This document shows positions 1,544 to 29,919 of a stretch of 64,000 bases of DNA, piece after piece (within the stretch, counting starts at the first letter, position 1; each line of letters opens with the position of its first letter). Where the stretch lies: NCBI GenBank assembly GCA_002723085.1, contig PBNK01000021.1:1-64000 (forward strand), in the 5' to 3' direction. Made by a program: the position numbers and the translations under genes. Below the pieces are notes generated by a model. That model searched no databases. It was given only the letters and a program-made list of their open reading frames with translations, and was not told where the DNA came from. Origin of the DNA: Crocinitomicaceae bacterium (lineage in GTDB: Bacteria > Bacteroidota > Bacteroidia > Flavobacteriales_D > Parvicellaceae).

Positions 1544-1547
1544 AAAA

Positions 1548-2603: not shown

Positions 2604-2769
2604 TAAGGTTATCAATTTTAAATAAGTAATTTAAAAATAAATACATTTTTTACAAATTCATATCATATAAATATTGATGGTACAAGAAAATTCACGACTA
2701 AAAATAATAACTGAACAAAATAATATTGGTTCTAAAAACTAACTTTACATTGATTAAATATTTATAATT
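2604..2769 (+). other. intergenic leader before the second block of glycosyltransferases
   Basis: 166 very AT-rich bases without an open frame of note. This is the only sizeable gap between the sialic-type genes and the following glycosyltransferases, so an internal promoter is expected here. I did not find a clean TTTG-N19-21-TAnnTTTG match; TAACTTTA about 25 bases before the next start is the nearest -7-like string. Confidence 0.3.
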
Positions 2770-3666: not shown

Positions 3667-3680
3667 ATAACTTGCATACG

Positions 3681-4571: not shown

Positions 4572-4578
4572 TAACAAA

Positions 4579-6335: not shown

Positions 6336-7490
6336 ATGTCATTAAGAGTTTTACATATTATTAGATCGCTTCATAGATCAGGTGCTGAAAGAATTTGTTT
6401 AGACATTTGCAATGAACTTAATACAAGAAAAGACATTCAAGTTCTTTTGATTTCAATGAGTGATATTAATGAATATGAAGAATTAACCAAAAAGATTCCT
6501 TTTAAAATCATTAATTCAAAAGTTTTTCCAAAAATTTTTAAAAAAAGCATTATTGAAATTGATGATTATAAAAAAGTAATTGATGATTTTAAGCCTAACA
6601 TTGTGCATAGTCATCTTTTTTGGTCTGAATTGTTATCAAGAGAGTATTCAAAGAATGAAATAACTTATGTTACTCATTGCCATGACAATATGGTTGAATT
6701 AAATAATATTTCATTTTCAACAATGTTTAACAAACTTAAATTAGTAAGGTTTTTTGAAAAAAAATGGATACTTAATAAATACTCCAATTGCAATAATTAT
6801 TTTTTAACAATTTCAAAACATACACAAAATTATTTTGAAAATGTTTTACCTAATAGTTTAGTAAGTAAATCAAAGTTGATTCCAAATGCAATTAGATTAC
6901 AAAAATTTCAAATAAAATCTAAACGATCATATAAATTAAATAACTCAAAACTTAAACTAATCAACATTGGTAGCTTTTGGCCAAAAAAAAACCAACAATT
7001 CTTATTACAAGTAGTTTCAAAATTAAAATCAAAAAACATAGATGTTGAATTAAAGTTACTTGGAGATGGGCCAGAAAAAGAAAACATTATAAATCAAGTA
7101 AAAAATTTAAACTTAGAGAGTTCTATTAAAATTTTAGGAAATGTTAAAAATGTAGAAGAAGAACTTTTTAAATCTGATTTATATGTTCATTCTGCATTAT
7201 ATGAACCATTTGGATTAGTTTTAATTGAAGCAATGGCAGCAGGCTTACCAATTGTAACAATTAATGGTAAAGGTAATTCGGATCTTATAACAAACAACTT
7301 CAATGGATTTATTTTAAATAATCCAACAGTAAATCTTTTTACAGAAAAAATTTTGTCAATTGTAAACAGCAAAGAACTTTACGAGAAATTTTCAGAAAAC
7401 GCTTCAACTTTTTCTAAAAAATTTTCAATAGAAAACTACACAGATCAACTTATTAAATGGTATAATGAAATTCATGAAAGAGGAAAGTAA
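6336..7490 (+). CDS. family 4 (GT-B) glycosyltransferase
   Basis: A 384-residue retaining glycosyltransferase of GT4 type. The N-terminal lobe begins VLHIIRSLHRSGAERI, with the glycine and acidic residues that contact the acceptor. The C-terminal lobe has the GT4 EX7E signature EPFGLVLIE (about residues 290-298), followed by AMAAGLPIV and a GNSDLI loop. It starts directly after the previous stop. Its 3' end overlaps the next start by 26 nt, so the whole run from 2770 looks like one operon. Confidence 0.84.
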   Translation: MSLRVLHIIRSLHRSGAERICLDICNELNTRKDIQVLLISMSDINEYEELTKKIPFKIINSKVFPKIFKKSIIEIDDYKKVIDDFKPNIVHSHLFWSELLSREYSKNEITYVTHCHDNMVELNNISFSTMFNKLKLVRFFEKKWILNKYSNCNNYFLTISKHTQNYFENVLPNSLVSKSKLIPNAIRLQKFQIKSKRSYKLNNSKLKLINIGSFWPKKNQQFLLQVVSKLKSKNIDVELKLLGDGPEKENIINQVKNLNLESSIKILGNVKNVEEELFKSDLYVHSALYEPFGLVLIEAMAAGLPIVTINGKGNSDLITNNFNGFILNNPTVNLFTEKILSIVNSKELYEKFSENASTFSKKFSIENYTDQLIKWYNEIHERGK

Positions 7491-8415
7491 AAATATTAAA
7501 CTTGAACTTGGCGATGTATCTCTTAATAAAGAGTTAGGAATCTATTACATTGATATGTCTCCAGCAATTATCCATTATAAAAGTAATTTATACGGAGGTG
7601 GATTTGATGAAAATGGTGTTCCAATGGATAAATCAATAGATGGAACAATATTTTACTTCCCCATTAATATCGCACAATATGGATTTATTCTTCATGCTCA
7701 TTATTTAAAAAACAAATGTGAAAAAACATTAATAACTTTAAAAAGTTGTGTAAATAAACTTGAAGAATTAAAAACAACAAAGGATAACTATTGTGTTTGG
7801 TTGCACAAACAATATAATTATAGATATAACATTAAACCACCCTGGCCATCAGCAATGGCACAAGGAGAGTTAATATCCTTATACCTAAGAGCCTATCAAT
7901 TATTTGAAAATGAAAGCTATTTAGATACAGCAAAAAAAGCTTATAAATTTTTAGAGCTAGATGTTGAAGAAGGAGGTGTGAAAAAAATTGATGAAAACGG
8001 ATATCTATGGTATGAAGAATATCCATCAAAACCATCTTCATATGTACTAAATGGGTTTATATACACAATTTTTGGATTGTATGATTTATTTCGAATAACT
8101 AATAATAAAAGTGTAAAAAAAAATATTGACTTATGTATAAATACATTAAAAAATAATATTCATAAATATGATGCTGGATTTTGGTCAAGGTATGATTTAT
8201 TAAAGAAAGAATTAGTTAGATATTATTATCAGAAAAACGTCCATGTTCCATAATTAGAAATACTATACAAGCTTACTAATGAACCTTTATTTTTAAATTA
8301 TAAACAAAAATGGGAAAATAATCTTTCTTCAATAAATTATTTATTTGTAAAATTTATGTATAGAATTGAATTTAGATTTAATAAACTAAAAAATTTCTGG
8401 ATTAGGGATGAATAA
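7465..8415 (+). pseudogene. D-glucuronyl C5-epimerase-like gene interrupted by an in-frame TAA
   Basis: The uninterrupted part (262 residues, stop at 8251-8253) resembles the D-glucuronyl C5-epimerase C-terminal family, which converts D-glucuronate to L-iduronate in glycans. It has YGGGFDENGVP near residue 44, PWPSAMAQGE near 130 and FWSRYDL near 238. The family's final block (YxxxHxxxLxxLYxLTxxxxFxxYxxxW) is split. HVP precedes the stop, and the same frame continues without a gap as LEILYKLTNEPLF and KQKWE until TAA at 8413-8415. Residue 263 would be Gln if TAA were CAA. The read-through frame overlaps the next start by 8 nt, like its neighbours. This could be a recent nonsense mutation, a sequencing error or read-through. 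The start may be 7465 or 7474. Confidence 0.75.
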
Positions 8416-9652
8416 GAACCTAGTATTATTAAATGATGACTATCCAACTTCATCTGGTGAATTTTTCATAGATGATGAAATGAAAGTTCTTGAAAAATAT
8501 TTTAAAAATATTTATATTATTAAAAGAAATCAATCAGGGTTAAGATTAAATCGATATGTTCCCAATAAATTAGAAATAAAAATATATAAGGATCATTTTA
8601 ATGTATATGAAAAAATAAAATCAATTAGACATATCTTTTCTAAATTATTTATAGAAGAATTAAAAGCAATAAAAAATACATACAAAATAAAAATCTCATA
8701 TTTAATAATTAAAATCATTCTAAATGATATTATAAAATCATCCAAGCTTAAAAAAGAAATAAATACATTAATTAAAGAAAAAAATCTAAACTTAAATGAA
8801 ACTGTTTTTTATTCATATTGGCATGACTACAAAGCTTTAACATTAGCAAGAATAAAATATAAATTTCCTGAATTTAAATGTATATCAAGAGCGCATAGAT
8901 GGGATATTTATTTTTATGCAAATAGCCCTGAGTATCTGCCTTTCAAATATTTCATATTAGAAAATTTGAATAAATCTATCTCAATTTCAGAAGATGGAAT
9001 TAGTTATTGGAAAAACAAATTTCCTAAACTAGAAAACAACAAACTAATGCTTTCTAAACTTGGAAAATTTAATAACAGAAATCCTTTTATTAAAAAAGTA
9101 GATAACTCGGTATTTAGGATTTGTAGTTGTTCTACATTAAAGGAGGTAAAAAGAGTTCATCTTATTATTGAAACTTTAAGTATTATAAAAAACCTTAATT
9201 TAGAATGGATACATTTTGGAGATGGAGAACTTAGAAAAGATTTGGAAGAATTAGCTAAAAATAAATTGGCCAATGTTAATTATAATTTCACCGGTAATAT
9301 TTCTAATGAAAAGATACTAAATTTCTATTCTGAAAATTATGTTGATTTATTCCTAAACGTAAGTAGTTCGGAAGGAATTCCAGTTAGTATTATGGAGTCA
9401 TTATCTGCAGGCATTCCTGTTATTGCAACAAATGTTGGAGGAAATAATGAAATTATAAACAACAAAAATGGCAGCATTATAGATTCAGATTTTAGGACAG
9501 AAGAACTTTCCACTAAAATATATAATTATTCCAAATTAAAAGAAACAAAAATTATTCAATACAGAGAAAATGCTTATAAATTCTGGTTAGAAAATTATAA
9601 TGCCAAAAAAAATTACGCCAATTTCACTTCATATATGAAAAACCTAAAATGA
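8408..9652 (+). CDS. family 4 (GT-B) glycosyltransferase
   Basis: A 414-residue protein. The C-terminal lobe has the GT4 signature SSSEGIPVSIMESLSAGIPV (about residues 316-335), followed by ATNVGGNNEII, a clear donor-binding EX7E-type motif. The N-terminal lobe is divergent and rich in lysine and isoleucine, with GEFFIDDEM near residue 18. The ATG lies inside the C-terminal extension of the interrupted epimerase frame. The last 4 nt overlap the next glycosyltransferase. It probably acts on the cytoplasmic membrane, adding one sugar to the lipid-linked repeat. Confidence 0.82.
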   Translation: MNKNLVLLNDDYPTSSGEFFIDDEMKVLEKYFKNIYIIKRNQSGLRLNRYVPNKLEIKIYKDHFNVYEKIKSIRHIFSKLFIEELKAIKNTYKIKISYLIIKIILNDIIKSSKLKKEINTLIKEKNLNLNETVFYSYWHDYKALTLARIKYKFPEFKCISRAHRWDIYFYANSPEYLPFKYFILENLNKSISISEDGISYWKNKFPKLENNKLMLSKLGKFNNRNPFIKKVDNSVFRICSCSTLKEVKRVHLIIETLSIIKNLNLEWIHFGDGELRKDLEELAKNKLANVNYNFTGNISNEKILNFYSENYVDLFLNVSSSEGIPVSIMESLSAGIPVIATNVGGNNEIINNKNGSIIDSDFRTEELSTKIYNYSKLKETKIIQYRENAYKFWLENYNAKKNYANFTSYMKNLK

Positions 9653-10902
9653 AGAAAGTTTTAATATTAGCATATCACTTCCCCCCGAATAATTCAATTG
9701 GCAGTCAAAGACCATATTCTTGGTATCAACATTTTATTAAAAACCAATTGTACCCAATAATTATCACTAGACATTGGCATAATAACATCAATTCAGAAAT
9801 TGAGTGTATAAAATCAACAATCAATCAAAATATTGAAAATATAAAGGATGAAAATGGAACAATAATAAGAATCCCACATAATCCTAATCTAAGAGATAAA
9901 ATACTCATTAAATACGGCAAAGACAAAAAAATACTTTTAAGAAAATTCTTGACTATTTTTTATTCATTTTTTGAATTCAAATTTAAAAAATTTGATTCCA
10001 AAATTTCAATCTATTATGAAGCTGAAAAATATATTAAACAGAACAAAATTAATTGTATAATCGCAACAGGCGAACCTTTTATTCTATTTAAATATGCTTC
10101 AAAACTATCCAAGAAATATTCAATCCCTTGGATTGCTGACTATAGAGATGAATGGATTAAAAGAAACAATAGCATTATTCTAAAGCCTTTTTATAAAATT
10201 CTTGAAAAACAACTTTTATCTAATTGTGATAAAATTATTTCAGCTTCTCCTAATTATTCAAAAAATCTTGAAAAAAATCTTGGAAAAAAAGTAACTACAA
10301 TCACAAATGGATATGATGATAGCATTAATTTTAAAAATGATCCAATAATTAATCCATATTTTGAAATTTCGTATGTTGGAACTCTTTATAGTTTTCAACC
10401 AATAGAATCTTTTTTTTCAGTACTTAATTCTTTTGTTGAAAAATTAAATATTGAAATAATATTCAGTTTTTATGGAACTGGATTTTATCCTGAGAATTGG
10501 GAAAGAGTTGAAAAAATTAAAATATCTAGTAAAATCAAAATCATAAAACATGATAGATTACCAAAAGTTGATCTTTTAAATAATTTAAGGAAATCATCTA
10601 TTTTACTATTGTTAACAACTCCTAATTTTATAACACTTGCTGGGAAAACATTTGATTATTTAATCGCTAAAAGACCAATTTTACTTTTTAAAAATGATTT
10701 TTCAGTTTTAGAAAAAATTATTTTGGACTGTAAATCTGGATACGTTTGTAAAAATGAACAAGAAGTTTTTTTAACATTAAAAAAATCTTATGGCTTATGG
10801 ATTAAACATAAAATAGTTCCTTGTAATACTAGTGATATAGAAAAATACTCAAGAAAGAATTTAACTAAAAAATATGTGTCAATAATAAATAAAATAAACT
10901 GA
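9649..10902 (+). CDS. GT-B glycosyltransferase (GT4-like)
   Basis: A 417-residue protein opening with KKVLILAYHFPPNNSIGSQR, the usual start of a large GT4-like family in Bacteroidota polysaccharide loci. The middle has WIADYRDEWI (about residues 163-172), and the C-terminal lobe has GKTFDYLIAKRPILLF (about 331-346), the donor-side loop that replaces a strict EX7E. It overlaps the previous gene by 4 nt and is followed by a methyltransferase after 22 nt. Function within the repeat-unit pathway is inferred from context. Confidence 0.78.
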   Translation: MKKVLILAYHFPPNNSIGSQRPYSWYQHFIKNQLYPIIITRHWHNNINSEIECIKSTINQNIENIKDENGTIIRIPHNPNLRDKILIKYGKDKKILLRKFLTIFYSFFEFKFKKFDSKISIYYEAEKYIKQNKINCIIATGEPFILFKYASKLSKKYSIPWIADYRDEWIKRNNSIILKPFYKILEKQLLSNCDKIISASPNYSKNLEKNLGKKVTTITNGYDDSINFKNDPIINPYFEISYVGTLYSFQPIESFFSVLNSFVEKLNIEIIFSFYGTGFYPENWERVEKIKISSKIKIIKHDRLPKVDLLNNLRKSSILLLLTTPNFITLAGKTFDYLIAKRPILLFKNDFSVLEKIILDCKSGYVCKNEQEVFLTLKKSYGLWIKHKIVPCNTSDIEKYSRKNLTKKYVSIINKIN

Positions 10903-10924
10903 TAAGCATATATTAAATTTAATT

Positions 10925-11797
10925 ATGGAAAAAAATCACAATTCATGCCTAATATGTAAAAGTTCTATTTTAAATGATTTAGTAACTTTTAAGGCTGCTC
11001 ATTTAACAAAATGTAAAAAATGTAATTTTGTGTTTTCAAAAAAAATACCATCTCAACAAGAGCTAATTGACCATTACGATGGATATGGTAGAAATGATTA
11101 TCTATCACCTATTACAATAAAAAGATATAATGAACTTCTTGATGAATTTGAAAAATTTAGAAAAAATGGAAAAATAATTGATGTAGGATGCGGTATTGGT
11201 TATTTTCTTGAAGAGGCAAAAAAAAGAGGATGGGAAGTTTATGGAACTGAATATACTGACGAAGCAATAAAAATATGCAAAAGAAAAGGTATAACAATGC
11301 AACAAGGTAAATTAAATCCTAATAACTATAATCTTGAAGAATTTGATATAATAACCTCTTTTGAGGTTTTAGAGCACATTAATAATCCAATTGAAGAGCT
11401 TTCAAATTTTTATAAAATTTTGAGAAAAGGAGGATTAGTATATTTAACCACTCCAAATTTCAATAGTATTTCTAGATATTATTTAAAATCTAATTATAAT
11501 GTTATCACTTACCCAGAACATTTAAGTTATTACACACCAAAAACAATTAAATATCTTTTCAAAAAATTAAATTTTAAAACTTTAAAAATTGAAACTACTG
11601 GAATTAGTATAACTAGAATTAAAACAAGCAAAGGGTTAAGTAATCAAGCATTCATTTCTGAAAAATCAGATGACGAGATATTGAGAAATAAAATTGAAAA
11701 AAATTTCATCTTACAAGTATTTAAAACAATCGTAAATTTTTTCTTATCATTAATGGGAAAAGGAAATAGTTTAAAAGGTTGGTTTATTAAAATTTAA
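10925..11797 (+). CDS. class I SAM-dependent methyltransferase with N-terminal zinc finger
   Basis: A 290-residue protein. The N-terminus has two CxxC pairs (C8-C11 and C30-C33), the small zinc-binding module seen in many sugar C- or O-methyltransferases. The Methyltransf_23-type Rossmann core follows, with motif I IIDVGCGIG (84-92), TSFEVLEHI near residue 140 and GGLVYLTTPN near 170. Such enzymes often modify nucleotide sugars or polysaccharide termini, and the glycosyltransferase neighbours support that. The substrate is unknown. Confidence 0.8.
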   Translation: MEKNHNSCLICKSSILNDLVTFKAAHLTKCKKCNFVFSKKIPSQQELIDHYDGYGRNDYLSPITIKRYNELLDEFEKFRKNGKIIDVGCGIGYFLEEAKKRGWEVYGTEYTDEAIKICKRKGITMQQGKLNPNNYNLEEFDIITSFEVLEHINNPIEELSNFYKILRKGGLVYLTTPNFNSISRYYLKSNYNVITYPEHLSYYTPKTIKYLFKKLNFKTLKIETTGISITRIKTSKGLSNQAFISEKSDDEILRNKIEKNFILQVFKTIVNFFLSLMGKGNSLKGWFIKI

Positions 11798-11810
11798 AAA
11801 ATTACATTAA

Positions 11811-13649
11811 ATGTGTGGCATCACAGGCTTTTATTCTAAAAATCTAAAGAAAGATGAACTAATTTTAATGACTAATAGACTACGTCATCGAGGTCCAGAT
11901 GCTATAGGAAATTATTTTAATATAGATAAACACATCGGTCTTGGTCATAGTAGACTTAGTATACTTGATCTTTCTGACTCTGCCAACCAACCAATGACAT
12001 CTAGCTGTAACAGATATGTTATGGTTTACAATGGAGAGGTGTATAACTATAAAAATATTTCAAAAGAAATAAGCAAAATTAATTGGAAAACCTCATCAGA
12101 CTCTGAAGTTATATTAGAGGCTTTTTGTAAATGGGGGCCAAACTTTGTAACCAAATTAAATGGCATGTTTTCTATTGCTATTTATGACAAAAAAGAAAAT
12201 AAATTATTTTTGTTCAGAGACAGAATGGGTATAAAACCATTATTTTATTCTATTTCAGATGATCAATTCATTTTTGCAAGCGAATTAAAAGCAATAGACG
12301 AAATAATAAAAAACAAACCCATTTGTAATGAATCTATTTATGCATATCTCCATTTAGGTTATATACCTACAAATAAAACTATTTATAAAAATATTTTAAA
12401 AGTTAAACCTGGTTCTTACATTGAGTATAGAAATAACGAACTAAATGAAACAATATATTGGACGCCTGAAAATAAAATCACCAATAACACTTTTGACAAC
12501 TTTAGTTCTAGCAAAAAAAAGCTAAAACTATTATTACAGAATTCTATAAAAAGCAGATTGATAAGTGATGTACCTATCGGAACATTTTTAAGTGGGGGAA
12601 CTGATTCGTCTCTAGTCTCAGCTATAGCTCAAGAAGTTAGTGAATCCACAATAAATACTTTCTCAATTGGTTTTGAAGATGCAAAGCACAATGAAAGCTT
12701 TCATGCAAAAAAGGTAGCTAAGCGTTTAGGTACTAACCATAATGAATTTATTTTAAAAGAAAAAGACGCTTTAAATGAATTGGAGTCTATTATGGAACAC
12801 TTTGATGAACCATTTTTAGATCCTTCAGCTTTACCAACATTATTAGTTTCAAAGATGGCTAAAAGAAGTGTTACAGTTTGTTTAAGCGGAGACGGAGGAG
12901 ATGAATTATTTATGGGTTACGGAGCTTATAATTGGGCAAAAAGGCTCTCTAACCCAATAATTTGGTCATTGAAAAAACCTATATCATCTATTTTAGATAA
13001 ATCAGCGACTAATAAATATAAAAGAGCTGGATTAGTATTAAATGCTCCAAAAAAAAATTTAAAAAGTCATATATTCTCTCAAGAACAATATGTTTTTTCT
13101 GAACGTGAACTTAATAAATTATTAATTAAAAGGTCAAATTCATTAATTAATGAACTTAATCAACCTTACATTCTAAGCAGAAAATTAAATTCAATAGAAA
13201 ACCAAGCTTTTTTTGATTTAAATAATTATCTAATAGACGATTTATTAGTTAAAGTAGATAGAGCATCAATGTATACGTCTTTAGAAGCGAGGGTACCTTT
13301 ATTAGATCATAATATTATTGAATTTGCCATTAATTTGAATAAAAGATTCAAAATTCACAAAGGGACTCAAAAATATATTTTAAAAGAGATATTATACGAC
13401 TATTTGCCCAAGGAATTAATGGATAGACCTAAATGGGGCTTTTCAATTCCACTTGACAAATGGCTTCAAAATGAACTTTATTTTTTAATTGAAAAATATC
13501 TTAATAAAGATATAATAATGAATCAAGGAATTCTAAATTATAAAGAAATAGAAAAAATTAAAGTTAGGTTTAAGAATGGAGAAACATACTTATACAATAG
13601 GCTTTGGTCATTAATCATATTAAATAAATTCATTTTAAACTTTGGATAA
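11811..13649 (+). CDS. asnB: asparagine synthase (glutamine-hydrolysing) family protein
   Basis: A 612-residue two-domain amidotransferase. Cys2 in MCGITGF is the N-terminal nucleophile of the class II glutaminase domain. Conserved glutaminase elements are RLRHRGPD (about residues 23-30) and YNGEVYN (about 74-80). The synthetase half has the PP-loop FLSGGTDSSL (about 258-267) and SGDGGDELF. Within polysaccharide loci such proteins often amidate uronic acids rather than make free asparagine. The neighbouring C5-epimerase-like gene fits that, but this is inference. The 3' end overlaps a convergent gene by 15 nt. Confidence 0.85.
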   Translation: MCGITGFYSKNLKKDELILMTNRLRHRGPDAIGNYFNIDKHIGLGHSRLSILDLSDSANQPMTSSCNRYVMVYNGEVYNYKNISKEISKINWKTSSDSEVILEAFCKWGPNFVTKLNGMFSIAIYDKKENKLFLFRDRMGIKPLFYSISDDQFIFASELKAIDEIIKNKPICNESIYAYLHLGYIPTNKTIYKNILKVKPGSYIEYRNNELNETIYWTPENKITNNTFDNFSSSKKKLKLLLQNSIKSRLISDVPIGTFLSGGTDSSLVSAIAQEVSESTINTFSIGFEDAKHNESFHAKKVAKRLGTNHNEFILKEKDALNELESIMEHFDEPFLDPSALPTLLVSKMAKRSVTVCLSGDGGDELFMGYGAYNWAKRLSNPIIWSLKKPISSILDKSATNKYKRAGLVLNAPKKNLKSHIFSQEQYVFSERELNKLLIKRSNSLINELNQPYILSRKLNSIENQAFFDLNNYLIDDLLVKVDRASMYTSLEARVPLLDHNIIEFAINLNKRFKIHKGTQKYILKEILYDYLPKELMDRPKWGFSIPLDKWLQNELYFLIEKYLNKDIIMNQGILNYKEIEKIKVRFKNGETYLYNRLWSLIILNKFILNFG

Positions 13650-14993
13650 CTTTTTTTTATTTGAAATTTTAAAAACTAAAAATAACATTGGAAAATAAAA
13701 TGGTATAAGTGGGACTCTATACCTAACCAATGCACCAAAATTTGTACTAGCAATTCCTACTCCAAAAGCAAATATTATAGAAAAAACAAATGCATACAAT
13801 AAAATTGGCTCAGAAAATAAAACTCTTGCCAATCTTAAAGGGCCAACGTTGATAAATAAGTAAAGAGAAAAAAAGAGTAGTATTGTGTTCTCTATTACGG
13901 AAATCACCATTATTGGACTCCCAATTTCCCAAAATAATGGTCTATAAATAGCTGTAAAAACCGCAACAGGGGCTAAAGAAAAAACACCTCCAATTGACCC
14001 ATCAATTTTACCAATATTATAATTATTTGAACCATAAGCTTCCTCCCTTAACAAATCTTGTTGAATAACTTGAGCTTGCTCTAAAGCAGAGTCAACATCT
14101 CCATAAACACCCATTAAAGAGCTAATATTAGAAAGAACTATATACCCTCCAAAACCAAAAATTAATATAAATAAAGGGAGTTTTAATGTTTTAGAAACAA
14201 ATGATTTTGAAGTTTTAAGATATGCACTATTGATCCACAAAATAATTCCAGGAAATAGTGAAATTAGAACATAAGCTTTTGTATTTAAAAGAATTAAAAG
14301 GTTTAATTGCAAAAATATTATATTCCATAGTAAATGTTTTCTTTCAATAAAAATTCTATAAAAATTAAAAGTTAGCCAACATGTTGATCCTAAAACATAA
14401 CTGTCCTTCATTATTCCACTTCCCCAAAAAATTAAAGTTGGAAGAACTAACATAATATAAAATAACCCTTTAGAATAACCAGGATAAAGCATATTAAACA
14501 ACCTATAAAGTTTCCAAATACCAATAAAAGAAAAAACAGCTGTAAAAAAACTAGTAACTATAAAAGAACCAGAACCAAGAATATAAAATAAAGATGAAAA
14601 CCTTGACACCGCAAATGTTTGGGTATCTCTCCACATATATGTTGGAGGGTAACCAGAACCAGCATTAAAAGATTTCCAAGAATTAAAATAAGAATCAGTA
14701 TTAAAAATTAAAGCAATTCCCTTTTCAATATCTTGAAATAAAACACCAACTAATGCTTTTGAACCTAAAAAATAATTCGTAGTATCACCACCATTATAAT
14801 AAAAAACATAAACCAAACAAAATATAGTAGCACCAATTAATTTAGCAATCAACGCTTTTGTTAAATATTTGTACTCTGGATATTTATTTATATTTCTTGA
14901 TTTCACAAAATTAGCTACTAAAATAATAGCTAAAAAGTATATTAATGCTATTAATAAATCAGGGTAGGAAATAATATTTGATACGCTTTGCAT
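13635..14993 (-). CDS. polytopic membrane protein, possible polysaccharide polymerase-like
   Basis: A 452-residue protein with about ten hydrophobic segments spread along its length and a basic C-terminus (KISNKKKLSKV). I do not recognise the family. Conserved-looking features are a periplasm-type loop with YNGGDTTNYF near residue 67, a Trp/Tyr-rich loop (GSGYPPTYMWRDT) near 113, and FWGSGIMKDSY near 189. The length and topology resemble Wzy-like O-antigen polymerases or GT-C enzymes, and no other polymerase is visible in the locus. It is the only gene on this strand between 1 and 16.3 kb and overlaps asnB by 15 nt tail to tail. Confidence 0.6.
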   Translation of the reverse strand: MQSVSNIISYPDLLIALIYFLAIILVANFVKSRNINKYPEYKYLTKALIAKLIGATIFCLVYVFYYNGGDTTNYFLGSKALVGVLFQDIEKGIALIFNTDSYFNSWKSFNAGSGYPPTYMWRDTQTFAVSRFSSLFYILGSGSFIVTSFFTAVFSFIGIWKLYRLFNMLYPGYSKGLFYIMLVLPTLIFWGSGIMKDSYVLGSTCWLTFNFYRIFIERKHLLWNIIFLQLNLLILLNTKAYVLISLFPGIILWINSAYLKTSKSFVSKTLKLPLFILIFGFGGYIVLSNISSLMGVYGDVDSALEQAQVIQQDLLREEAYGSNNYNIGKIDGSIGGVFSLAPVAVFTAIYRPLFWEIGSPIMVISVIENTILLFFSLYLFINVGPLRLARVLFSEPILLYAFVFSIIFAFGVGIASTNFGALVRYRVPLIPFYFPMLFLVFKISNKKKLSKV

Positions 14994-15097
14994 TTCAAAG
15001 TACTTTTAATTTATACTAATATAGATATATATTTAATGTAATTTGTATAATTGCAAATACATTTACACATTACATATTAAAAACACTCAATAAAGAA

Positions 15098-16339
15098 ATG
15101 ATTAATACTCTTTATTTAAGCTATGACGGCTTAGCAGATCCGCTTGGCCAATCCCAAATCCTTCCATATCTATTTGGATTATCAAAAAATTATAAAATAA
15201 CAATCTTAAGTTTTGAAAAGTCTGAGAATATTAATAAAAGCTATCAATTTATATCAAATAAACTTAAGGAAAATCAAATTGATTGGGTTCCTTTAAAATA
15301 TTCAAAAAGACCACCTATTATTTCAACAATTTGGGACATTTATAAATTGAATAAAACTGTAAATAAGTTAATAAAAAGTGGTGTCAACCTTATTCATTGC
15401 AGAAGCTATATCACTTCATTAGTTGCTTTAAAAATTAAGAGAAAACACAACATCCCATTCATTTTTGACATGAGAGGGTTTTATGCTGATGAGAGAGTAG
15501 ATGGTGAAATTTGGGATAAAAATAAATTACCTTTTAATAAAATTTATAGCTTCTTTAAGAAGAAAGAGAAAGAGTTTTTAGAAAAAGCGGAATATAACAT
15601 TTCGCTAACATCAAATGGTAAAAAAGAAATAGAATCATGGAAACTACCAAATCAGTCTCCGATTTCTGTAATACCTTGTTGTACTGATGATAATTTATTC
15701 AAAAAAGAAAATATAAAAAATGTTAGAAAGGACATAGGTTTTGATGAAGATGATTTTGTAATTTCCTATGTAGGCTCCATAGGCACTTGGTACATGCTTG
15801 ATGAAATGTTAGATTTTTTCAAAGAGGTTCGAAAAAATAAACCAAACGCAAAATTTCTATTTATTACCAAAGATAATCCTCAATTAATTTTAGAAAAAGC
15901 TCTTGCAAAGAATATTGATGTTAATAGTCTAAAAATACAACCCTCATTAAGGGAAATGATGCCCTCTTACATAGGATTAAGTGATTTTTCTATCTTTTTT
16001 ATTCTTCCTGTGTTTTCAAAAAAAGCTTCCTCTCCTACTAAAATGGGAGAAATAATGAATTTAGGAATTCCTATTATCTGCAATGAAGGTGTTGGAGATG
16101 TTGATGAAATAATGAATGAATGTATGCCTGAGCTTTTAATAAAAGAATTTACCAAAAACGAATACCAAAGAATTATTGATTTGATAATTAATGATTATAA
16201 ACCCAATGAAAAAAGAATCATAGAAACTTCTCATAATTATTATTCTCTAGAAAAAGGTGTTAGAAAATACAAAGAAGTCTATCAAAGCATTTTGGAGGGC
16301 AAAATCACTCATGATGATACTTCTCCCCTTTTAAAATAG
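15098..16339 (+). CDS. GT-B glycosyltransferase (GT4-like)
   Basis: A 413-residue protein beginning NTLYLSYDGLADPLGQSQIL, a characteristic opening of a GT4-like family in polysaccharide loci. Other features are DMRGFYADERVDG (about residues 126-138) and the C-terminal donor loop SSPTKMGEIMNLGIPIICNE (about 308-327). It has its own 100-nt leader after the divergent membrane-protein gene, so it is probably transcribed separately from the operon above. The last 35 nt overlap rlmH on the opposite strand. Confidence 0.8.
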   Translation: MINTLYLSYDGLADPLGQSQILPYLFGLSKNYKITILSFEKSENINKSYQFISNKLKENQIDWVPLKYSKRPPIISTIWDIYKLNKTVNKLIKSGVNLIHCRSYITSLVALKIKRKHNIPFIFDMRGFYADERVDGEIWDKNKLPFNKIYSFFKKKEKEFLEKAEYNISLTSNGKKEIESWKLPNQSPISVIPCCTDDNLFKKENIKNVRKDIGFDEDDFVISYVGSIGTWYMLDEMLDFFKEVRKNKPNAKFLFITKDNPQLILEKALAKNIDVNSLKIQPSLREMMPSYIGLSDFSIFFILPVFSKKASSPTKMGEIMNLGIPIICNEGVGDVDEIMNECMPELLIKEFTKNEYQRIIDLIINDYKPNEKRIIETSHNYYSLEKGVRKYKEVYQSILEGKITHDDTSPLLK

Positions 16340-22413: not shown

Positions 22414-23769
22414 ATGAAAATCAATATTCAATTATTATTTCTTATTTTATTTTTAAAAATTTCATTTTTAAACTTTGGTCAGGACAATAACTTTATTGAA
22501 AAAACCAAGGTTCAACACAAAATAAACGAAGGAAGAAATAATTTTTACTCTCACAATGTTAAAACAGCACTTCTAAACTACAAAGAAGCTTTGGCGATGG
22601 ATCCAAAAAATGCTAAAGCAGAATTTGGATTAGCACAATGCTATTTCAAATTGCATAAATTTGAAGAAGCTTTAAATCATGCCAAAAAAGCCAAAAATTT
22701 AAATGCTGAAGTAAATGAAGATCTAAATTTTTTACTTGGTGAAATTTATTTTAGAAAAGGGGAATTAAATCTTGCCAAAAAACACATTCAATCCTTTAAA
22801 GAAGTTACAAAATCAAAATCAAAATTAGAAGATTATGATGTTGATTTAATTTTAGAACAAATTGAATATTCAAAAAAAGCTATCCTTAAAGGAAATACAT
22901 CTGTTATAATAAAAAATATGGGAGAGAAAATAAATAGTTCTGGGCCAGAATATGCACCTTCTATATCTCATGATGGAAAATATTTCATATTTACTTCCAG
23001 AAGATCAGACACTAAAGGTGGTGAAGTAGATCGAAATTTTGATTATCAGTATTTCTCTGATATTTATCTATCTAAATGGAACGAATCAACCAAAAACTGG
23101 GATGAGCCTTCAAATTATCTTGGAAAAATAAACACTGAATATTATGATGCTTCGCTTGGTTTCACAGCTGAAAATTCTATTTTAATTTATAGAAACATTT
23201 TTGGTGTTACTAAGGTTGGAGATATATATATATCACATCAAAGTAAATCTGAAAAATGGGCTACTCCAAAACCTATTGCTCACAAAGACAAAAAAATATC
23301 CAACAAAATAAACTCTAGCTATTTTGAAAGTTCTGCAAGTATTACTTCAGATGGAGAATACATATATTTTGTTTCTGACCGACCTGGAGGTGAAGGTCAA
23401 GCAGATATATATTATGTTAAAAAACAAGGGAAAACATATACTGAACCAGTTAATATAGGAGCTAATATCAACACTGGTCTTGACGAAAAATGTGTTTTTA
23501 TTCACCCAGATGGCAACACCCTATTTTTTACTTCGAATGGCCGAAAAGAAAGCATTGGAAGTTACGATATATATTATTGTACTGGTGGCCATGAAAATTG
23601 GAGTAAACCTGTTAATATGGGTTCTCCAATTAACAGTTTTTTAGAAGAGAAAACAATCAATGTTTCATTAGACAAGAAAAAAGCATATGTTTCAGCCTAT
23701 TATGATATTAATAATTTAGGTGATGCTGACATTTATGAAATTGATATTTCTTCTTTCAAGTTTAAATAA
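22414..23769 (+). CDS. exported TPR and PD40 beta-propeller protein
   Basis: A 451-residue protein with a signal peptide ending near FGQ (residues 21-23). Two to three TPR repeats follow (YKEALAMDPKNAKAEFGLAQ and the next 70 residues). The C-terminal two-thirds contains WD40-like PD40 propeller blades with the repeated core SxDGxxIxFxSxR: PSISHDGKYFIFTSRR, SITSDGEYIYFVSDRPGG and FIHPDGNTLFFTSNGR. In Bacteroidota this architecture often precedes an OmpA peptidoglycan-binding domain, which is absent here. The gene ends in IDISSFKFK. It is likely periplasmic. Confidence 0.78.
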   Translation: MKINIQLLFLILFLKISFLNFGQDNNFIEKTKVQHKINEGRNNFYSHNVKTALLNYKEALAMDPKNAKAEFGLAQCYFKLHKFEEALNHAKKAKNLNAEVNEDLNFLLGEIYFRKGELNLAKKHIQSFKEVTKSKSKLEDYDVDLILEQIEYSKKAILKGNTSVIIKNMGEKINSSGPEYAPSISHDGKYFIFTSRRSDTKGGEVDRNFDYQYFSDIYLSKWNESTKNWDEPSNYLGKINTEYYDASLGFTAENSILIYRNIFGVTKVGDIYISHQSKSEKWATPKPIAHKDKKISNKINSSYFESSASITSDGEYIYFVSDRPGGEGQADIYYVKKQGKTYTEPVNIGANINTGLDEKCVFIHPDGNTLFFTSNGRKESIGSYDIYYCTGGHENWSKPVNMGSPINSFLEEKTINVSLDKKKAYVSAYYDINNLGDADIYEIDISSFKFK

Positions 23770-23818: not shown

Positions 23819-25036
23819 ATGAATAAGCTAATTTTTAAAATAACTATTTTCATAAGTATAATTATTTTACCTCAAATTGGAATTTCTCAAGAAAAACAAG
23901 ATTATGCTTCAGAAGAAAAATCACTTTATTTAGTTAGAAAAACTGACGGTAATGAGCTGTATGGTTTTATAATAAGTGACGATGGAAGAGAAATACTTCT
24001 TGACACAAAAACTATTGGTAAGGTATATATAAATAAAGCAGATATCAAAGAAATAATTGACACAAAAAAAACGCTAAGTCTCGAAGATATCAAATCAGAT
24101 ACCTATACTGAATTTAGAACATCTGGACCATTTACAACTAGATATTATTTTACCAATAATGCTTTACCTGTTAAAAAAGGGGAAGATTATGCTATGATTC
24201 ATTTATTCGGGCCCGAAGTTCACTTTTCATTAAACGACAAAGTATCACTTGGGGTTATGGCAACTTGGATAGCCAGCCCAATAGGTTTAGTTGCAAAGGG
24301 AAATATTTACTCTAATAACAAACTTCACCTTTCATTAGGAACAATTATGGGGTCTTCAGGATATATAAATCAAGGCAGGTCTTTTGGTGGCTTACATTGG
24401 TTAACCATGACAATTGGTGACAGAGCATCAAACTTTAGTTTTTCAGGTGGGTATGGCTATATTAATTGGTCAAATTCTCAATCATCAAATTTCATGATTA
24501 ATCAAAGAACAATTGGCGACAAATATTCATTCAGTTTCTATGATACTCAACATCCTTATTTCATTCCTGATTATGAAATTGAATATGCTTTAAACCAAGA
24601 ATTATATGGAGATAACTTTTATTATTGGAACAATTCAGAAAGATACTTAACCAAAGATAAACAAGGCGCAATTATAATAGGAGTTTCTGGAATTTCTCCA
24701 GTTGGAAAAAAGGCAAGTTTTATTTTTGATTCAATGATTTTAATTAAAGATGAAAAGTCTGTGGTTTACAATGATTATGAAGTGAATGGCACTTATGATC
24801 GATATGATAATAATGGGAACCCTGTTAACACCCCTTTCAATGTAACTGTCGGAAAAGGCGAGGTAGTAAATTCAAATTTTAATTCTACAACTATTTTATT
24901 TATGCCTGCAATGAGAATAAACAGTTCTTATTCAAAAGCTTTTCAATTGTCCCTTGCAGGTGTAATCAATTTTGATTCTAATGGAGACGCAACTTCTTTT
25001 CCCTTTCCAATGGTTTCTTGGTTAAGAAAATTTTAA
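23819..25036 (+). CDS. exported paralogous protein A, outer-membrane-like
   Basis: A 405-residue protein with a signal peptide (cut near ISQ). I do not recognise the family. The mature N-terminus has a small beta module, LYLVRKTDGNELYGFIISDD then GRE and KTIGKVYI. It is followed by RTSGPFTTRYYFTNNALPVK and alternating hydrophobic/Gly-rich strands ending in WLRKF, which look like an outer-membrane barrel with a terminal aromatic. It is a clear paralogue of the next gene, with an extra insertion of about 60 residues around 210-270. No catalytic motif is visible. Confidence 0.6.
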   Translation: MNKLIFKITIFISIIILPQIGISQEKQDYASEEKSLYLVRKTDGNELYGFIISDDGREILLDTKTIGKVYINKADIKEIIDTKKTLSLEDIKSDTYTEFRTSGPFTTRYYFTNNALPVKKGEDYAMIHLFGPEVHFSLNDKVSLGVMATWIASPIGLVAKGNIYSNNKLHLSLGTIMGSSGYINQGRSFGGLHWLTMTIGDRASNFSFSGGYGYINWSNSQSSNFMINQRTIGDKYSFSFYDTQHPYFIPDYEIEYALNQELYGDNFYYWNNSERYLTKDKQGAIIIGVSGISPVGKKASFIFDSMILIKDEKSVVYNDYEVNGTYDRYDNNGNPVNTPFNVTVGKGEVVNSNFNSTTILFMPAMRINSSYSKAFQLSLAGVINFDSNGDATSFPFPMVSWLRKF

Positions 25037-25175
25037 ATACTCTAAATTAAATATAATTAACTTATAGTCAGTTAGTTATGTATGAAAATAAATAATTAAC
25101 ACGTCCTTTTTAGTTTATTACTTATTTTTTTTGTCAATTAATATTACTTAGTATTGACAAATAAAACTCACGTAA

Positions 25176-26210
25176 ATGAAAATTTTATCTAAAACTCTAA
25201 TATTATTATCTGTACTTATACTGCCAATCCTTTTTACAGCTCAAGAATCGACTACAGACACAAGTAAATTATATTTGATTAAAAAAACTGATGGAGGTGA
25301 ATTTATTGGAGAAATCATCTCAGATGACGGCAGAGAAGTCTTGATAATGACTAAAAGCATTGGTAAAGTTTATATTATAAAAGAGAATATTGCACTAATT
25401 ACTCAAACCAATGAAACAAAAAAATTATCAAATGATGAAGCTGAAATTGCAGAGTTTAGAACTGAAGGACCGTTTACCACAAGATACTATTTTACAAATA
25501 ATGCTCTTCCAATAAAAAAAGGTGAGAACTATGCATTTATTAATTTATTTGGACCCGAAGTTCATTTTGCAGTAACTGACAACCTAAATTTTGGATTAAT
25601 CTCTTCTTGGATTGGAAGCCCTATTACCTTAGTAAGTAAATTATCAATTATTTCTGAAAAAAAGGTACATCTTTCAGTTGGAAACATAATTGGAAATTCA
25701 GGCTATCTAGCTCAGGGGAGAGTATTAGTAGGGCTACATTGGGGGACCTTAACAATTGGTGATCGTATGCGTAACGTTAGTTTTTCTGCTGGTTATGGTT
25801 ACTTCAGCGACAAATCTAATACAATTACGAATTTTGGAGACTCTTTTCACGATGCACTTTTCTTAGGTTTTGGAGGAATTAGCCCAGTTGGTAAAAAAGC
25901 CAGTTTTATTTTAGATGGAATGTTCATTTCAAACACAAGGGACAACCGCAGTTATGATCCGCAGAACACAAATAATCCATGGAGAAACACTACAGAGCCG
26001 ACAATAACAAATACTACATTAATTTTAATGCCAGGAATGAGATTTTATTCATCTTATGATAAAGCTTTTCAAATTTCATTAGCTGGTGTGTTCTTTACAA
26101 ATAAAAGATACAATAGACGTATATACAATAGCGATGGAAGTAGTACTTACAAAAGTGGTGAAGTTACCTCATTTCCTGTACCAACTATTTCTTGGCTTAG
26201 GAAGTTTTAA
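25176..26210 (+). CDS. exported paralogous protein B, outer-membrane-like
   Basis: A 344-residue tandem paralogue of the upstream protein. Both share the N-terminal module (LYLIKKTDGGEF, IISDDGREVL, KSIGKVYI), the block GPFTTRYYFTNNALPIKKGE, LFGPEVHF, GISPVGKKASFI and the terminal WLRKF. This copy lacks the mid-protein insertion. A signal peptide ends near FTAQ. The 139-nt gap between the copies suggests separate expression is possible. The Phe-ending beta pattern suggests outer-membrane insertion. Function is unknown. Confidence 0.6.
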   Translation: MKILSKTLILLSVLILPILFTAQESTTDTSKLYLIKKTDGGEFIGEIISDDGREVLIMTKSIGKVYIIKENIALITQTNETKKLSNDEAEIAEFRTEGPFTTRYYFTNNALPIKKGENYAFINLFGPEVHFAVTDNLNFGLISSWIGSPITLVSKLSIISEKKVHLSVGNIIGNSGYLAQGRVLVGLHWGTLTIGDRMRNVSFSAGYGYFSDKSNTITNFGDSFHDALFLGFGGISPVGKKASFILDGMFISNTRDNRSYDPQNTNNPWRNTTEPTITNTTLILMPGMRFYSSYDKAFQISLAGVFFTNKRYNRRIYNSDGSSTYKSGEVTSFPVPTISWLRKF

Positions 26211-26243: not shown

Positions 26244-27941
26244 ATGCGAGTTTCATTTCTTTTAAATCTTATAATTTTTCTTACAACTATTTTATTCATT
26301 ACGAGTTGTAATCAGCCAACCATTCAGAAAGAAAAATTGTCTTGTAATAAGCTAATTTCTGAAATCAACACAACTCAAGAATTTAAATTCTTTTTTGATA
26401 ATGACACTATCATCACTCAAGCTGATAAAAATGAAGAATTTTACAGCTTTAAATGTAAAAACGGAAAAAGAATTTATAGAAAGAAAAAATTCAGATTATA
26501 TCCTTTAAAAAATAATGAATCAATAAAAAAAGCTGAACTTATAATTCATGTAAATAATGAGTTGAAAGAAAATAAATTAATTGGAGTTTTTAGTAAAATA
26601 GTTAATCTTAACAATGAATCTTACCTTTTTCAAGAAGAAATTGGTAAAAGAATAATTGAATCTAATCAAAGAAGAGAAGGCATAATTTTAAAAATCCAAA
26701 ATAAAGATTCATATATTTTTATTGAGAGTACCAAAAGAGAAGCTTTTTCATCAAGTATAGACCTGTCTATTCAAAATTTTATTAATCAAAACATTTTAAA
26801 TGAATGCTACATTGACAAAATAAGTACTATTAAATTTATTTCTATCATAAAAAAACACTTGGGCAATGTAAATCCAAACTATTTTTATTTAAATCCTATT
26901 ACAAATAAAGCAGAACCCATTTTGGCCGGATTAACCAATTTTAAAATCAATAAATCCAAAAACATCATAGTTGAGGAATGCCAAAGTGATTCAAATTTCT
27001 TAACCTATTTTAATAAAGATCAAAACAATAACTTTTTATTTCTAAAAAATGATATTTCAGTAATAGAAAGCAAATTAACTATTCCTGATGGTTATGTAAT
27101 TAAAATTAATGCAGGTCAACAAATTGATATTATTAATTACGCATCTGTAATATCATTTAGTCCAATAGAGTGTAAAGGAACTGTAGATAATAAAATTCAT
27201 ATTTTTTCAAGCGATTCAACTGGTCAAGGAATTCATATTCTTCAAAAAAATGAATCCTCGATAATAGATCATTTGGTGTTTAGCAATCAAAATTCATTTT
27301 CAAAAAGAACAAAAGTAAGCAGTTGGTTACTCCCAAGTGCTTTAACCTTCTATGGAGGTGAAGTTACAATTAACAATAGTGAATTTAGAGATTTATATAG
27401 TGAGGATGCAATAAACACATTCAGAAATAAATATTCTTTCAGTAATTCAACCATCGAAAATACTTTTTCTGATGCTTTTGACGCAGATTTTAGTTTTGGA
27501 TCTATTAACAACTGTTCATTTATTAACTGTGGCAATGATGCTGTTGACATTTCTGGTGGGGAATTAGACTTAAATTATAGTCATTTTTCTGTGGTTAAAG
27601 ATAAAGCAATAAGTGCTGGAGAAGAAAGCATAATGCATGTAAATAATTGTACAATAGAAAAATCTTCATTAGGAATTATTTCAAAAGATTTATCAAAAGT
27701 TAATGCCTCAAATTCATCTATCTCAAATTGTGAAATTGCTTATTGTGCTTTCCAAAAAAAAGGCGAATTTGGACCTGGTTCAATTGTTTCTACTAATAAC
27801 ATTGAATCAAATTGTAAAAAAACTCATTTAATAGAGTTCAAATCTGAATTAAGTTTGAATGATAGTATAATTAATGAGTTTGAATACAATGTAATAGATT
27901 ATCTTTATGGGAACATTTATGGTAAAGCTACCGTAAAATAA
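26244..27941 (+). CDS. lipoprotein with CotH-like N-terminal and right-handed beta-helix C-terminal regions
   Basis: A 565-residue lipoprotein with lipobox ITSC (Cys22). Residues about 120-230 resemble the CotH kinase family: NNESYLFQEEIGKRIIESNQ, RREGIILK and FYLNPITNKAEPI echo the family's YLxQE, RREGxI and NPxTxxLEPI blocks. The Asp usually found shortly after EPI is not evident here, so activity is doubtful. From residue about 270 it becomes a parallel beta-helix with repeated short Asn/Ser-rich turns (NNSEFRDLYSEDAIN, NNCSFINCGNDAVDISGG). CotH-like, VTC and DUF4956 genes often co-occur, and the next two genes are exactly VTC and DUF4956. Confidence 0.68.
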   Translation: MRVSFLLNLIIFLTTILFITSCNQPTIQKEKLSCNKLISEINTTQEFKFFFDNDTIITQADKNEEFYSFKCKNGKRIYRKKKFRLYPLKNNESIKKAELIIHVNNELKENKLIGVFSKIVNLNNESYLFQEEIGKRIIESNQRREGIILKIQNKDSYIFIESTKREAFSSSIDLSIQNFINQNILNECYIDKISTIKFISIIKKHLGNVNPNYFYLNPITNKAEPILAGLTNFKINKSKNIIVEECQSDSNFLTYFNKDQNNNFLFLKNDISVIESKLTIPDGYVIKINAGQQIDIINYASVISFSPIECKGTVDNKIHIFSSDSTGQGIHILQKNESSIIDHLVFSNQNSFSKRTKVSSWLLPSALTFYGGEVTINNSEFRDLYSEDAINTFRNKYSFSNSTIENTFSDAFDADFSFGSINNCSFINCGNDAVDISGGELDLNYSHFSVVKDKAISAGEESIMHVNNCTIEKSSLGIISKDLSKVNASNSSISNCEIAYCAFQKKGEFGPGSIVSTNNIESNCKKTHLIEFKSELSLNDSIINEFEYNVIDYLYGNIYGKATVK

Positions 27942-27973
27942 AAGTATAATTTATTTGAAAGTTACGTTTACAA

Positions 27974-28750
27974 ATGCATAATATACTATCTATCTTAAAA
28001 TTGTATGATCCAATTGATTTAAAAGAAATGGATTCAGTTTCTTTAATGGAAAGAACCGATGAAAAATATACAGTAAAGATTAACGATATTGTTGATATGC
28101 TTAACCTTTTATCCAAAACTTACAGATGTTTAGAGATAAATAATGAAAGACTATTTAATTATGAAACCGAATATTTAGACAATTGTGATTCTATTCTTCA
28201 TAGAAATCATCAAAATGGAAAATTAAATAGGTTTAAAATAAGGTTTAGAGATTACATTCAATCTGGCATTACTTTTTTGGAAATAAAATTCAAATCAAAT
28301 AAAGGGGTTACTAAAAAAAGCAGAATTAAAGTTCCATTCAAAAGTAGAAGTGGAAGTGATAAATGCAATCAATTCATAAATAAAAAAACACCATATAATC
28401 CTAAAAAACTTAAAATCACATTATCAAATAGTTTTGATAGAATTACCTTAGTTAACTTATCTACAAAAGAAAGAGTAACTTTTGATATAAATCTAAAATT
28501 CAACAACAAAAATGAAGTTAAAGAATTGCCTGAATTAGGAATTATAGAGGTTAAAAGAGAAAAAGGAAATAGAAAATCTGAAATATTGTCTTTGCTAAAA
28601 AATAAAGGAATAAGGCCAACAAGATTTAGTAAATATGCAATAGGTTCTGTACTTTTAAATCCTGAATTAAAATACAATAACTTCAAAAAGAAATTATTAT
28701 TTATAAATAAAATAAACCACCATGGAAATATTTGGAATAGAGCTGTTTAA
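27974..28750 (+). CDS. polyphosphate polymerase (VTC) domain protein
   Basis: A 258-residue CYTH/TTM-superfamily protein of the VTC type. Conserved tunnel residues appear in ERTDEKY (26-32), YETEYLDN, RFKIRFRDY (basic strand), FLEIKFKSNKG, TFDINLKF, IIEVKREKG and FSKYAIG. In yeast Vtc4 the equivalent residues polymerise ATP gamma-phosphates into polyphosphate. Bacterial VTC-only proteins are less well studied. There is no signal peptide, so the domain is cytoplasmic. The 3' end overlaps the DUF4956 gene by 29 nt. Product identity, polyP or another phosphorylated polymer, is not shown by the sequence. Confidence 0.82.
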   Translation: MHNILSILKLYDPIDLKEMDSVSLMERTDEKYTVKINDIVDMLNLLSKTYRCLEINNERLFNYETEYLDNCDSILHRNHQNGKLNRFKIRFRDYIQSGITFLEIKFKSNKGVTKKSRIKVPFKSRSGSDKCNQFINKKTPYNPKKLKITLSNSFDRITLVNLSTKERVTFDINLKFNNKNEVKELPELGIIEVKREKGNRKSEILSLLKNKGIRPTRFSKYAIGSVLLNPELKYNNFKKKLLFINKINHHGNIWNRAV

Positions 28751-29336
28751 GGATTTTTTTGATAGCGAGGGTTTTGCAAAATTGATGTTCAAATTTGGAA
28801 TTAATTTCTTCTTTCTATTCATTATTGTAAGGCTTGTTTACTATAGGGTTAAAGACGATAAAGATTATGTATTTACCTTTTTCATGTTTAATATACTTAC
28901 ATTTTTCATCTGTTTTCTACTTAGAAAAGTACCCATGGAAATGGGCTTTGCCCTAGGTCTTTTTGCTGTTTTTGGAATTTTAAGATATCGAACTGAAGCT
29001 ATTCCAATTAGACAAATGACTTATTTGTTTATTGTCATAGGTGTTTCAATGGTAAATGCATTGTCAAATAAATCCATTAGTATTGTTGAACTGCTTTTCA
29101 CCAATGGCTTCATTACTTTAATTACTTATCTAATTGATCGTGTTTGGTTCCAATCTTTGGAGTTAAAAAAGTCAATTACCTATGAAAAAATACATTTAAT
29201 CGTCCCTGAAAAAGAAGATGAGTTAATTAATGATTTAAAAGAAAGAACAGGGCTACCAATTCACGCAGTTAAAATTGAAAAAATTGATTTTCTTAGAGAT
29301 ACTGCTTCAATTACAATATTCTACAATCAGGCTTAA
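28722..29336 (+). CDS. DUF4956 membrane protein
   Basis: A 204-residue protein with about four transmembrane segments and a C-terminal soluble domain of about 65 residues. The family signature GILRYRTEAIPIRQMTYLF (about residues 86-104) is clear. The soluble tail (IVPEKEDELINDLKERTGLP) looks like a small alpha/beta domain. DUF4956 proteins are regularly encoded beside VTC and CotH genes, as here. A role as membrane partner or exporter for the VTC product is inference. It overlaps the VTC gene by 29 nt and is followed after 7 nt by the pyrophosphatase. Confidence 0.84.
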   Translation: MEIFGIELFKDFFDSEGFAKLMFKFGINFFFLFIIVRLVYYRVKDDKDYVFTFFMFNILTFFICFLLRKVPMEMGFALGLFAVFGILRYRTEAIPIRQMTYLFIVIGVSMVNALSNKSISIVELLFTNGFITLITYLIDRVWFQSLELKKSITYEKIHLIVPEKEDELINDLKERTGLPIHAVKIEKIDFLRDTASITIFYNQA

Positions 29337-29343
29337 TTTTTAA

Positions 29344-29919
29344 GTGAAAAAAGTCAATTATATTTTTTTATTTGTATTGGTGTTTTTTTGTCTTCATTGC
29401 AAAAGGACCAAAATAAAAGAAAATAAAAAAGGATTTTCAGATGATTCATATATTGGAGTTGTTGAAATCCCAGCAGGGACAAATAAAAAATTTGAATACA
29501 ATCACCATAACAAATTATTTGAATGCGAAATAATTGATGGGAAGGAACGTATTGTTAATTACCTGCCCTATCCAGGGAATTATGGCTTCATAAAAAACAC
29601 CTATATGGATCCTAAACTTGGTGGAGATGGCGATGCTCTTGATGTTTTAATTATTTCTGAATCAATACCTCAAGGCAGGAATATAAAAATTCAACCTTTA
29701 GCTATTTTAAAACTTTTAGACCATGGAGAAGAAGACCATAAAATAATTGCTATACCTGAAAAAAGTGATTTAATTTTCTTAAATGATTCGATTCCTGAAT
29801 CATTTAAAGAAATTATAAGGACTTGGTTTTGCAATTATAAAGGTCCAGATAAAGTAAAATTTTTTTCTTGGGGAGATAGAAAATCTGCAATTGAAGAAAT
29901 AAAAAAATGGCAGAACTAA
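29344..29919 (+). CDS. family I inorganic pyrophosphatase with N-terminal export signal
   Basis: A 191-residue soluble-type pyrophosphatase. The active site is intact: YPGNYGFI (about residues 77-84), GDGDALDVLI (about 95-104) with both metal-binding aspartates, and DHGEEDHKIIAIP supplying the third. Ahead of the domain is a hydrophobic segment (residues 5-17) ending in cysteines (CLHCKR), so the protein is likely membrane-anchored or a lipoprotein facing the periplasm. The lipobox is weak because His precedes Cys. It starts with GTG 7 nt after the DUF4956 gene. Hydrolysing pyrophosphate would pull phosphotransfer reactions forward. Confidence 0.85.
   Translation: MKKVNYIFLFVLVFFCLHCKRTKIKENKKGFSDDSYIGVVEIPAGTNKKFEYNHHNKLFECEIIDGKERIVNYLPYPGNYGFIKNTYMDPKLGGDGDALDVLIISESIPQGRNIKIQPLAILKLLDHGEEDHKIIAIPEKSDLIFLNDSIPESFKEIIRTWFCNYKGPDKVKFFSWGDRKSAIEEIKKWQN

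Follow-up and report, generated by a model that had tools for sequence, protein, structure and literature searches.

What might a marine bacterium do with an operon that joins a CotH-fold/beta-helix lipoprotein, a VTC-type polymerase domain, a DUF4956 membrane protein and a lipoprotein pyrophosphatase? This question is raised by positions 26244-29919 of a 64,000-nt stretch (hereafter, the window) of contig 21 of a Crocinitomicaceae genome (2.43 Mb, 46 contigs, 95% complete), whose closest titled relatives are marine Flavobacteriales and Crocinitomicaceae metagenome-assembled genomes (MAGs). Homology and gene neighbourhood point to an envelope polyphosphate system in which the polymer would be synthesized inside, transferred outwards and used or trimmed outside, a reading that we favour while giving it slightly less than an even chance. 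The VTC domain would make polyphosphate from ATP in the cytoplasm; DUF4956 may carry, or help to carry, the polymer over the inner membrane, an export step proposed by analogy with the membrane part of yeast VTC; and the pyrophosphatase would cleave inorganic pyrophosphate (PPi) and short chains to phosphate (Pi) on the far side, like the soluble pyrophosphatase of acidocalcisomes. The CotH-fold/beta-helix lipoprotein would most likely bind or anchor the anionic chain or a surface glycan, which is the weakest point of the scheme, a guess from its fold and its loss of catalysis.

The four genes lie on the same strand with overlapping or closely spaced junctions, as a first-pass annotation of the locus had described (a 32-nt gap between lipoprotein and VTC, a 29-nt overlap between VTC and DUF4956 and a 7-nt gap before the pyrophosphatase), and code for proteins of 565, 258, 204 and 191 amino acids (aa), respectively:

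26244..27941, + strand: lipoprotein with a signal peptide, Cys22, a degenerate CotH-kinase-fold domain (residues ~30-226) and an AlgG-like right-handed beta-helix (~242-549).
27974..28750, + strand: VTC/triphosphate-tunnel polyphosphate polymerase domain, predicted cytoplasmic (Pfam, Vtc4 profile match, invariant tunnel residues).
28722..29336, + strand: DUF4956 membrane protein with some five long helices and, at the C-terminus, a small alpha/beta part (Pfam; low-confidence model).
29344..29919, + strand: lipoprotein family I inorganic pyrophosphatase with a complete active site and a GTG start (Pfam, PDB matches, active-site positions).

The domain assignments given in that annotation (CotH-like/beta-helix lipoprotein, VTC, DUF4956 and exported pyrophosphatase) were borne out by Pfam, by AlphaFold models with Foldseek and by the lipobox cysteines.

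The case for a conserved gene order is strong. Twenty-five loci emerged when 84,980 species genomes were scanned, and of these L093-L106 carry the short form of the lipoprotein present in the window. The pyrophosphatase gene comes directly after that of DUF4956 in all 12 short-form loci with a visible downstream flank, as it does in the window, and the order lipoprotein-VTC-DUF4956-pyrophosphatase recurs in all short-form relatives with visible flanks except L101. At this last locus (L101:7947-10899), from a single-cell genome, the lipoprotein, DUF4956 and pyrophosphatase are present and VTC is cleanly missing, with a junction of ~47 nt. In L104-L106, which encode lipoproteins only ~32-37% identical to that of the window and have quite different outer neighbours, gene set and order are the same as in the window as far as the contigs reach. 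Chance linkage of the pyrophosphatase is ruled out by this order being kept across lineages with different outer neighbours, and the arrangement is thus not a peculiarity of one genome. The four-gene linkage is conserved, but it does not extend throughout Bacteroidota, a homologue of the lipoprotein having been found in only 4 of 395 sampled species of the phylum. Among 60 relatives, including the genome itself, 40 have VTC and 48 have DUF4956, and VTC adjoins DUF4956 for 41 of its 43 copies, the other two being on contigs without a DUF4956 match. DUF4956 also occurs apart from VTC: a genus within the family, and a different family within the order, have the former without the latter (L039-L046).

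Bacterial polyphosphate is usually attributed to PPK enzymes and to granules in the cytoplasm. Both PPK1 and PPK2 are absent from the 95% complete genome and, therefore, the VTC protein is its only recognizable polyphosphate polymerase. It matches the VTC family of Pfam (PF09359, E 1.7e-20), its best solved match in profile searches is yeast Vtc4 (3g3q, E 6.6e-11), and residues R27, K31, K88, R90, R92, E103, K105, R156, R167, E192, K194 and K220 are invariant in 13 VTC sequences. Some of these tunnel residues were likened by motif to R264, R266 and E426 of Vtc4 (PMC9911596), a correspondence that the alignment with 3g3q covers in part. Pfam detected neither an SPX nor a Vtc1-type membrane domain in its 258 aa; the protein is a bare catalytic domain of the TTM fold and a predicted polymerase. 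The CYTH/TTM fold superfamily includes hydrolases and, together with the absence of the SPX and Vtc1-type parts, this would suit a triphosphate-tunnel hydrolase or a nucleotide-binding regulator, with an operon that handles triphosphate or nucleotide signals in the envelope. We consider this very unlikely, as the best solved match is catalytic Vtc4 and not a hydrolase, and the tunnel residues are retained.

The last gene of the module codes for a family I enzyme (PF00719, E 2.3e-31, with PDB matches too) whose active site is intact at E41, K49, E51, R69, Y76, Y80, D95, D97, D100, D126, D131, K133, Y165 and K166, the active-site positions being those established for the E. coli enzyme. The genome has no other family I pyrophosphatase and none of family II, and it encodes one membrane H+-pyrophosphatase. 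Its lipobox Cys19 is invariant in 10 aligned pyrophosphatases, that of the window having an unusual His at position -1. As for other Bacteroidota lipoproteins, an outer location of both lipoproteins of the module is plausible, on either the periplasmic or the surface side. Such an enzyme could also hydrolyze environmental PPi independently, having simply come to lie after VTC-DUF4956 in a single lineage, so that the linkage would reflect co-regulation under phosphate stress and not a single pathway. Close lipoprotein pyrophosphatases do stand alone in other genera (G007, G009, G014, G017 and G040), and a tree placed these stand-alone copies, with moderate support, apart from the operon group and together with the copy at L050, a locus with the long form of the lipoprotein. 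Immediate adjacency has been kept, however, over diverged lineages with different outer neighbours, and the L050 enzyme represents a separate pairing with a long-form module, so phosphate scavenging appears unlikely.

The lipoprotein gave nothing significant in a Pfam scan, CotH kinase (PF08757) included, and was assigned through its AlphaFold model (predicted local distance difference test, pLDDT, 88.8; predicted template modelling score, pTM, 0.85). The N-terminal half best matches the CotH kinase of B. cereus (5jda/5jd9; Foldseek E 2e-5, prob 1.00), and the C-terminal half is a right-handed beta-helix with AlgG as top match (4ozz, Z 27.1, root-mean-square deviation 2.8 over 274 residues). 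A lipobox-like Cys22 is invariant across 14 homologous lipoproteins. The translated sequence does not contain the DPHD motif, presumably the catalytic motif of AlgG/AlgE alginate C5-epimerases. The CotH domain is truncated relative to that of the long form (~870-995 aa), some members of which match the Pfam families CotH and Beta_helix (PF08757 at 1.5e-9 in L050). Catalysis by CotH depends on Asp228 and Asp251 (PMC7821199). Assigned by motif (a phmmer search of the genome's own CotH protein against the PDB gave no match), Asp is found at the Asp251-like column in six of six long forms but never in the 12 short forms, and at the Asp228-like column in a single long form and no short form, so that the long form too would be an unusual kinase. 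Judged by its sequence, the CotH domain of the window lipoprotein is catalytically dead and not a kinase, making phosphotransfer by this protein unlikely. This divides what the first-pass annotation had suggested, an envelope phosphotransfer or polyphosphate-linked system: the evidence best fits the polyphosphate-linked alternative, with a pyrophosphatase outside the cytoplasm, and phosphotransfer by the lipoprotein is the improbable part. Contig 35 of the same genome encodes another relative of the lipoprotein (L118:7511-9508, 665 aa; E 2.9e-39 with the lipoprotein profile), and neither VTC, DUF4956 nor pyrophosphatase is found among its neighbours.

In another explanation, the module serves to modify an exopolysaccharide or a protein of the cell surface, and the donor would be polyphosphate or phosphate that VTC-DUF4956 delivers beyond the inner membrane. 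The CotH-fold lipoprotein would be the ancestral transferase, with a beta-helix that binds glycan and a pyrophosphatase that pulls the reaction by removing PPi. Related clusters lie in or beside polysaccharide genes at L106, L108, L119 and L120 (and, by appearance only, L117) and at streptococcal, clostridial and bifidobacterial pel loci (PMC7112168), alginate C5-epimerases are the nearest matches of the beta-helix, the long form retains one of the CotH aspartates, and the first 16 kb of the window (1-16 kb) are a glycan cluster. Nevertheless, the CotH aspartates are gone in the short form, which is the one present here, the neighbours of the module within 5 kb are not glycan genes, and the AlgG-type motif is missing from the lipoprotein; surface-polymer modification seems, on balance, somewhat unlikely.

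Long-form lipoproteins are present in the Saprospiraceae and a further family of Flavobacteriales, in a MAG of the Alteromonadaceae and in a single-cell genome of the Pelagibacteraceae. The long lipoprotein occurs together with DUF4956 and VTC in L050, L108, L113, L116, L117, L119 and L120, with a split version in L107. As L117 and L115 end at contig edges, flanks were counted in L050, L107, L108, L113, L116, L119 and L120, and an exported phosphohydrolase lies within about two genes of the module in five of these seven: a calcineurin-like protein with a type IX secretion (T9SS) tail in L050 and L116 (48-51% identical to each other), one with a lipobox in L108 and L113, and a PhoD-like protein in L107; L050 has a lipoprotein pyrophosphatase nearby as well. 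The hydrolase families of the yeast and trypanosome polyphosphatases recur as exported partners of bacterial VTC loci. By analogy, a module that makes polyphosphate inside, exports it and trims or uses it up outside can be proposed. Taken further, it may be an envelope counterpart of the acidocalcisome, in which exported polyphosphate would be held by the lipoprotein and freed as phosphate by a dedicated exported hydrolase, a slot filled across lineages by unrelated families (pyrophosphatase, calcineurin-like, PhoD); this extension is possible, if doubtful. The L117 cluster (L117:3-3553, order DUF4956-long lipoprotein-VTC) adjoins apparent sugar-nucleotide genes, and contamination of this Pelagibacteraceae single-cell genome is possible. 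VTC-DUF4956 pairs lacking the lipoprotein (L033, L034, L036, L071 and L077) often have other exported neighbours, namely a DUF2490 family protein beside DUF4956 in L033, L034 and L071 (with similar unscanned ORFs, open reading frames, in L036 and L077) and, in L033, L036, L071 and L077, a small lipoprotein whose gene precedes VTC. A motif scan of the relatives' loci of this kind gave no phosphoesterases, the scan being rough, as the motif missed the Pfam-found proteins of L108 and L107.

Several observations weigh against an envelope polyphosphate system. The DUF4956 protein has a clear Pfam match (E 1.6e-52) and a weak model (pLDDT 72, pTM 0.52); an MgtC-like or Vtc1-like nature was suspected from its sequence pattern, and Foldseek and VIA-align gave that weak model no significant fold match, known channels, MgtC-like and Vtc1-like proteins included, so that its role as a channel is a guess. 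No VTC was found elsewhere in the 62% complete assembly of L101, where the module lacks it, and other relatives keep DUF4956 without VTC. The pyrophosphatases that stand alone in other genera count here as well, and no exported phosphohydrolase was seen beside the long-form loci L119 and L120. Finally, no assay of any bacterial VTC protein turned up in the paper collection searched.

Upstream of the module, on the same strand and with short spacing, lie two putative outer-membrane barrels, a TPR/PD40 protein and an EI24/CysZ-type membrane protein:

22414..23769, + strand: TPR/PD40 protein, which immediately precedes the module in three genera of this family.
23819..25036, + strand: putative outer-membrane barrel 1, without a Pfam family; homologues just downstream of the module in a neighbouring genus.
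25176..26210, + strand: putative outer-membrane barrel 2, ending 33 nt before the lipoprotein gene.

The two barrel-like proteins (23819-26210) are related to each other, neither having a Pfam family, and their homologues are found on the opposite side of the module in the neighbouring genus and near the VTC-DUF4956 pair of L035. Downstream, cinA is convergent. A promoter and terminator scan of the locus gave promoter-like sites at or below chance level and no terminator on the + strand, and the limits of the operon are therefore set by spacing. A surface-glycan biosynthesis cluster occupies 554-16339 of the window, with genes for NeuB, several GT2/GT4 glycosyltransferases, an FkbM methyltransferase and an asparagine synthase.

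In a marine bacterium without PPK, an operon that joins VTC to a membrane partner and an exported pyrophosphatase suggests that polyphosphate occurs beyond the inner membrane. Marine bacteria keep a buffer of phosphate outside the cytoplasm, the chemistry of which is unexplained, and it has been stated that bacteria do not make periplasmic polyphosphate (PMC7250820); the operon provides named genes with which this statement can be tested. Exported polyphosphate would also be a possible donor for secreted CotH-type kinases, which otherwise have no ATP outside the cell.

Three known systems can be compared with the module. The cotH-PPP(VTC)-DUF4956 accessory cluster that accompanies pelDEADAFG in streptococci, clostridia and bifidobacteria (PMC7112168) likewise encodes a CotH-type protein, a VTC-type polymerase domain and DUF4956 together, so that this kind of cluster, as the first-pass annotation had indicated, was already known. 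Unlike it, the module has a Gram-negative envelope lipoprotein, in which a dead, shortened CotH domain is fused to a beta-helix, and its operon includes a pyrophosphatase that is itself a lipoprotein; the neighbours examined include no pel genes, no genome search aimed at pel having been made. New features are the short CotH/beta-helix protein with its dead kinase domain, encoded together with a pyrophosphatase, and the recurrent exported phosphohydrolases beside the long form. In NELoc-2 of Clostridium perfringens, the genes run VTC-'tubulin'-VTC-'tubulin'-CotH (PMC2879425), with VTC and CotH near each other as here. The pairs are duplicated, the 'tubulin'-like protein would occupy the place expected for DUF4956, and no pyrophosphatase is listed in the passage on these genes. 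In eukaryotes, yeast VTC makes polyphosphate from ATP and moves the chain through its own membrane part (PMC9911596), and lumenal polyphosphatases return it to phosphate, forming a phosphate buffer (PMC12668673). These are the calcineurin-like PPN1 and the metallophosphatase PPN2 in yeast (PMC6973038), and in trypanosome acidocalcisomes a soluble pyrophosphatase (VSP) with exopolyphosphatase activity (PMC6522730). The module shares with them the VTC/TTM polymerase domain and, probably, a pyrophosphatase or calcineurin-like hydrolase on the far side of the membrane; it differs from eukaryotic VTC in having neither SPX nor a Vtc1-type membrane domain, with DUF4956 instead.

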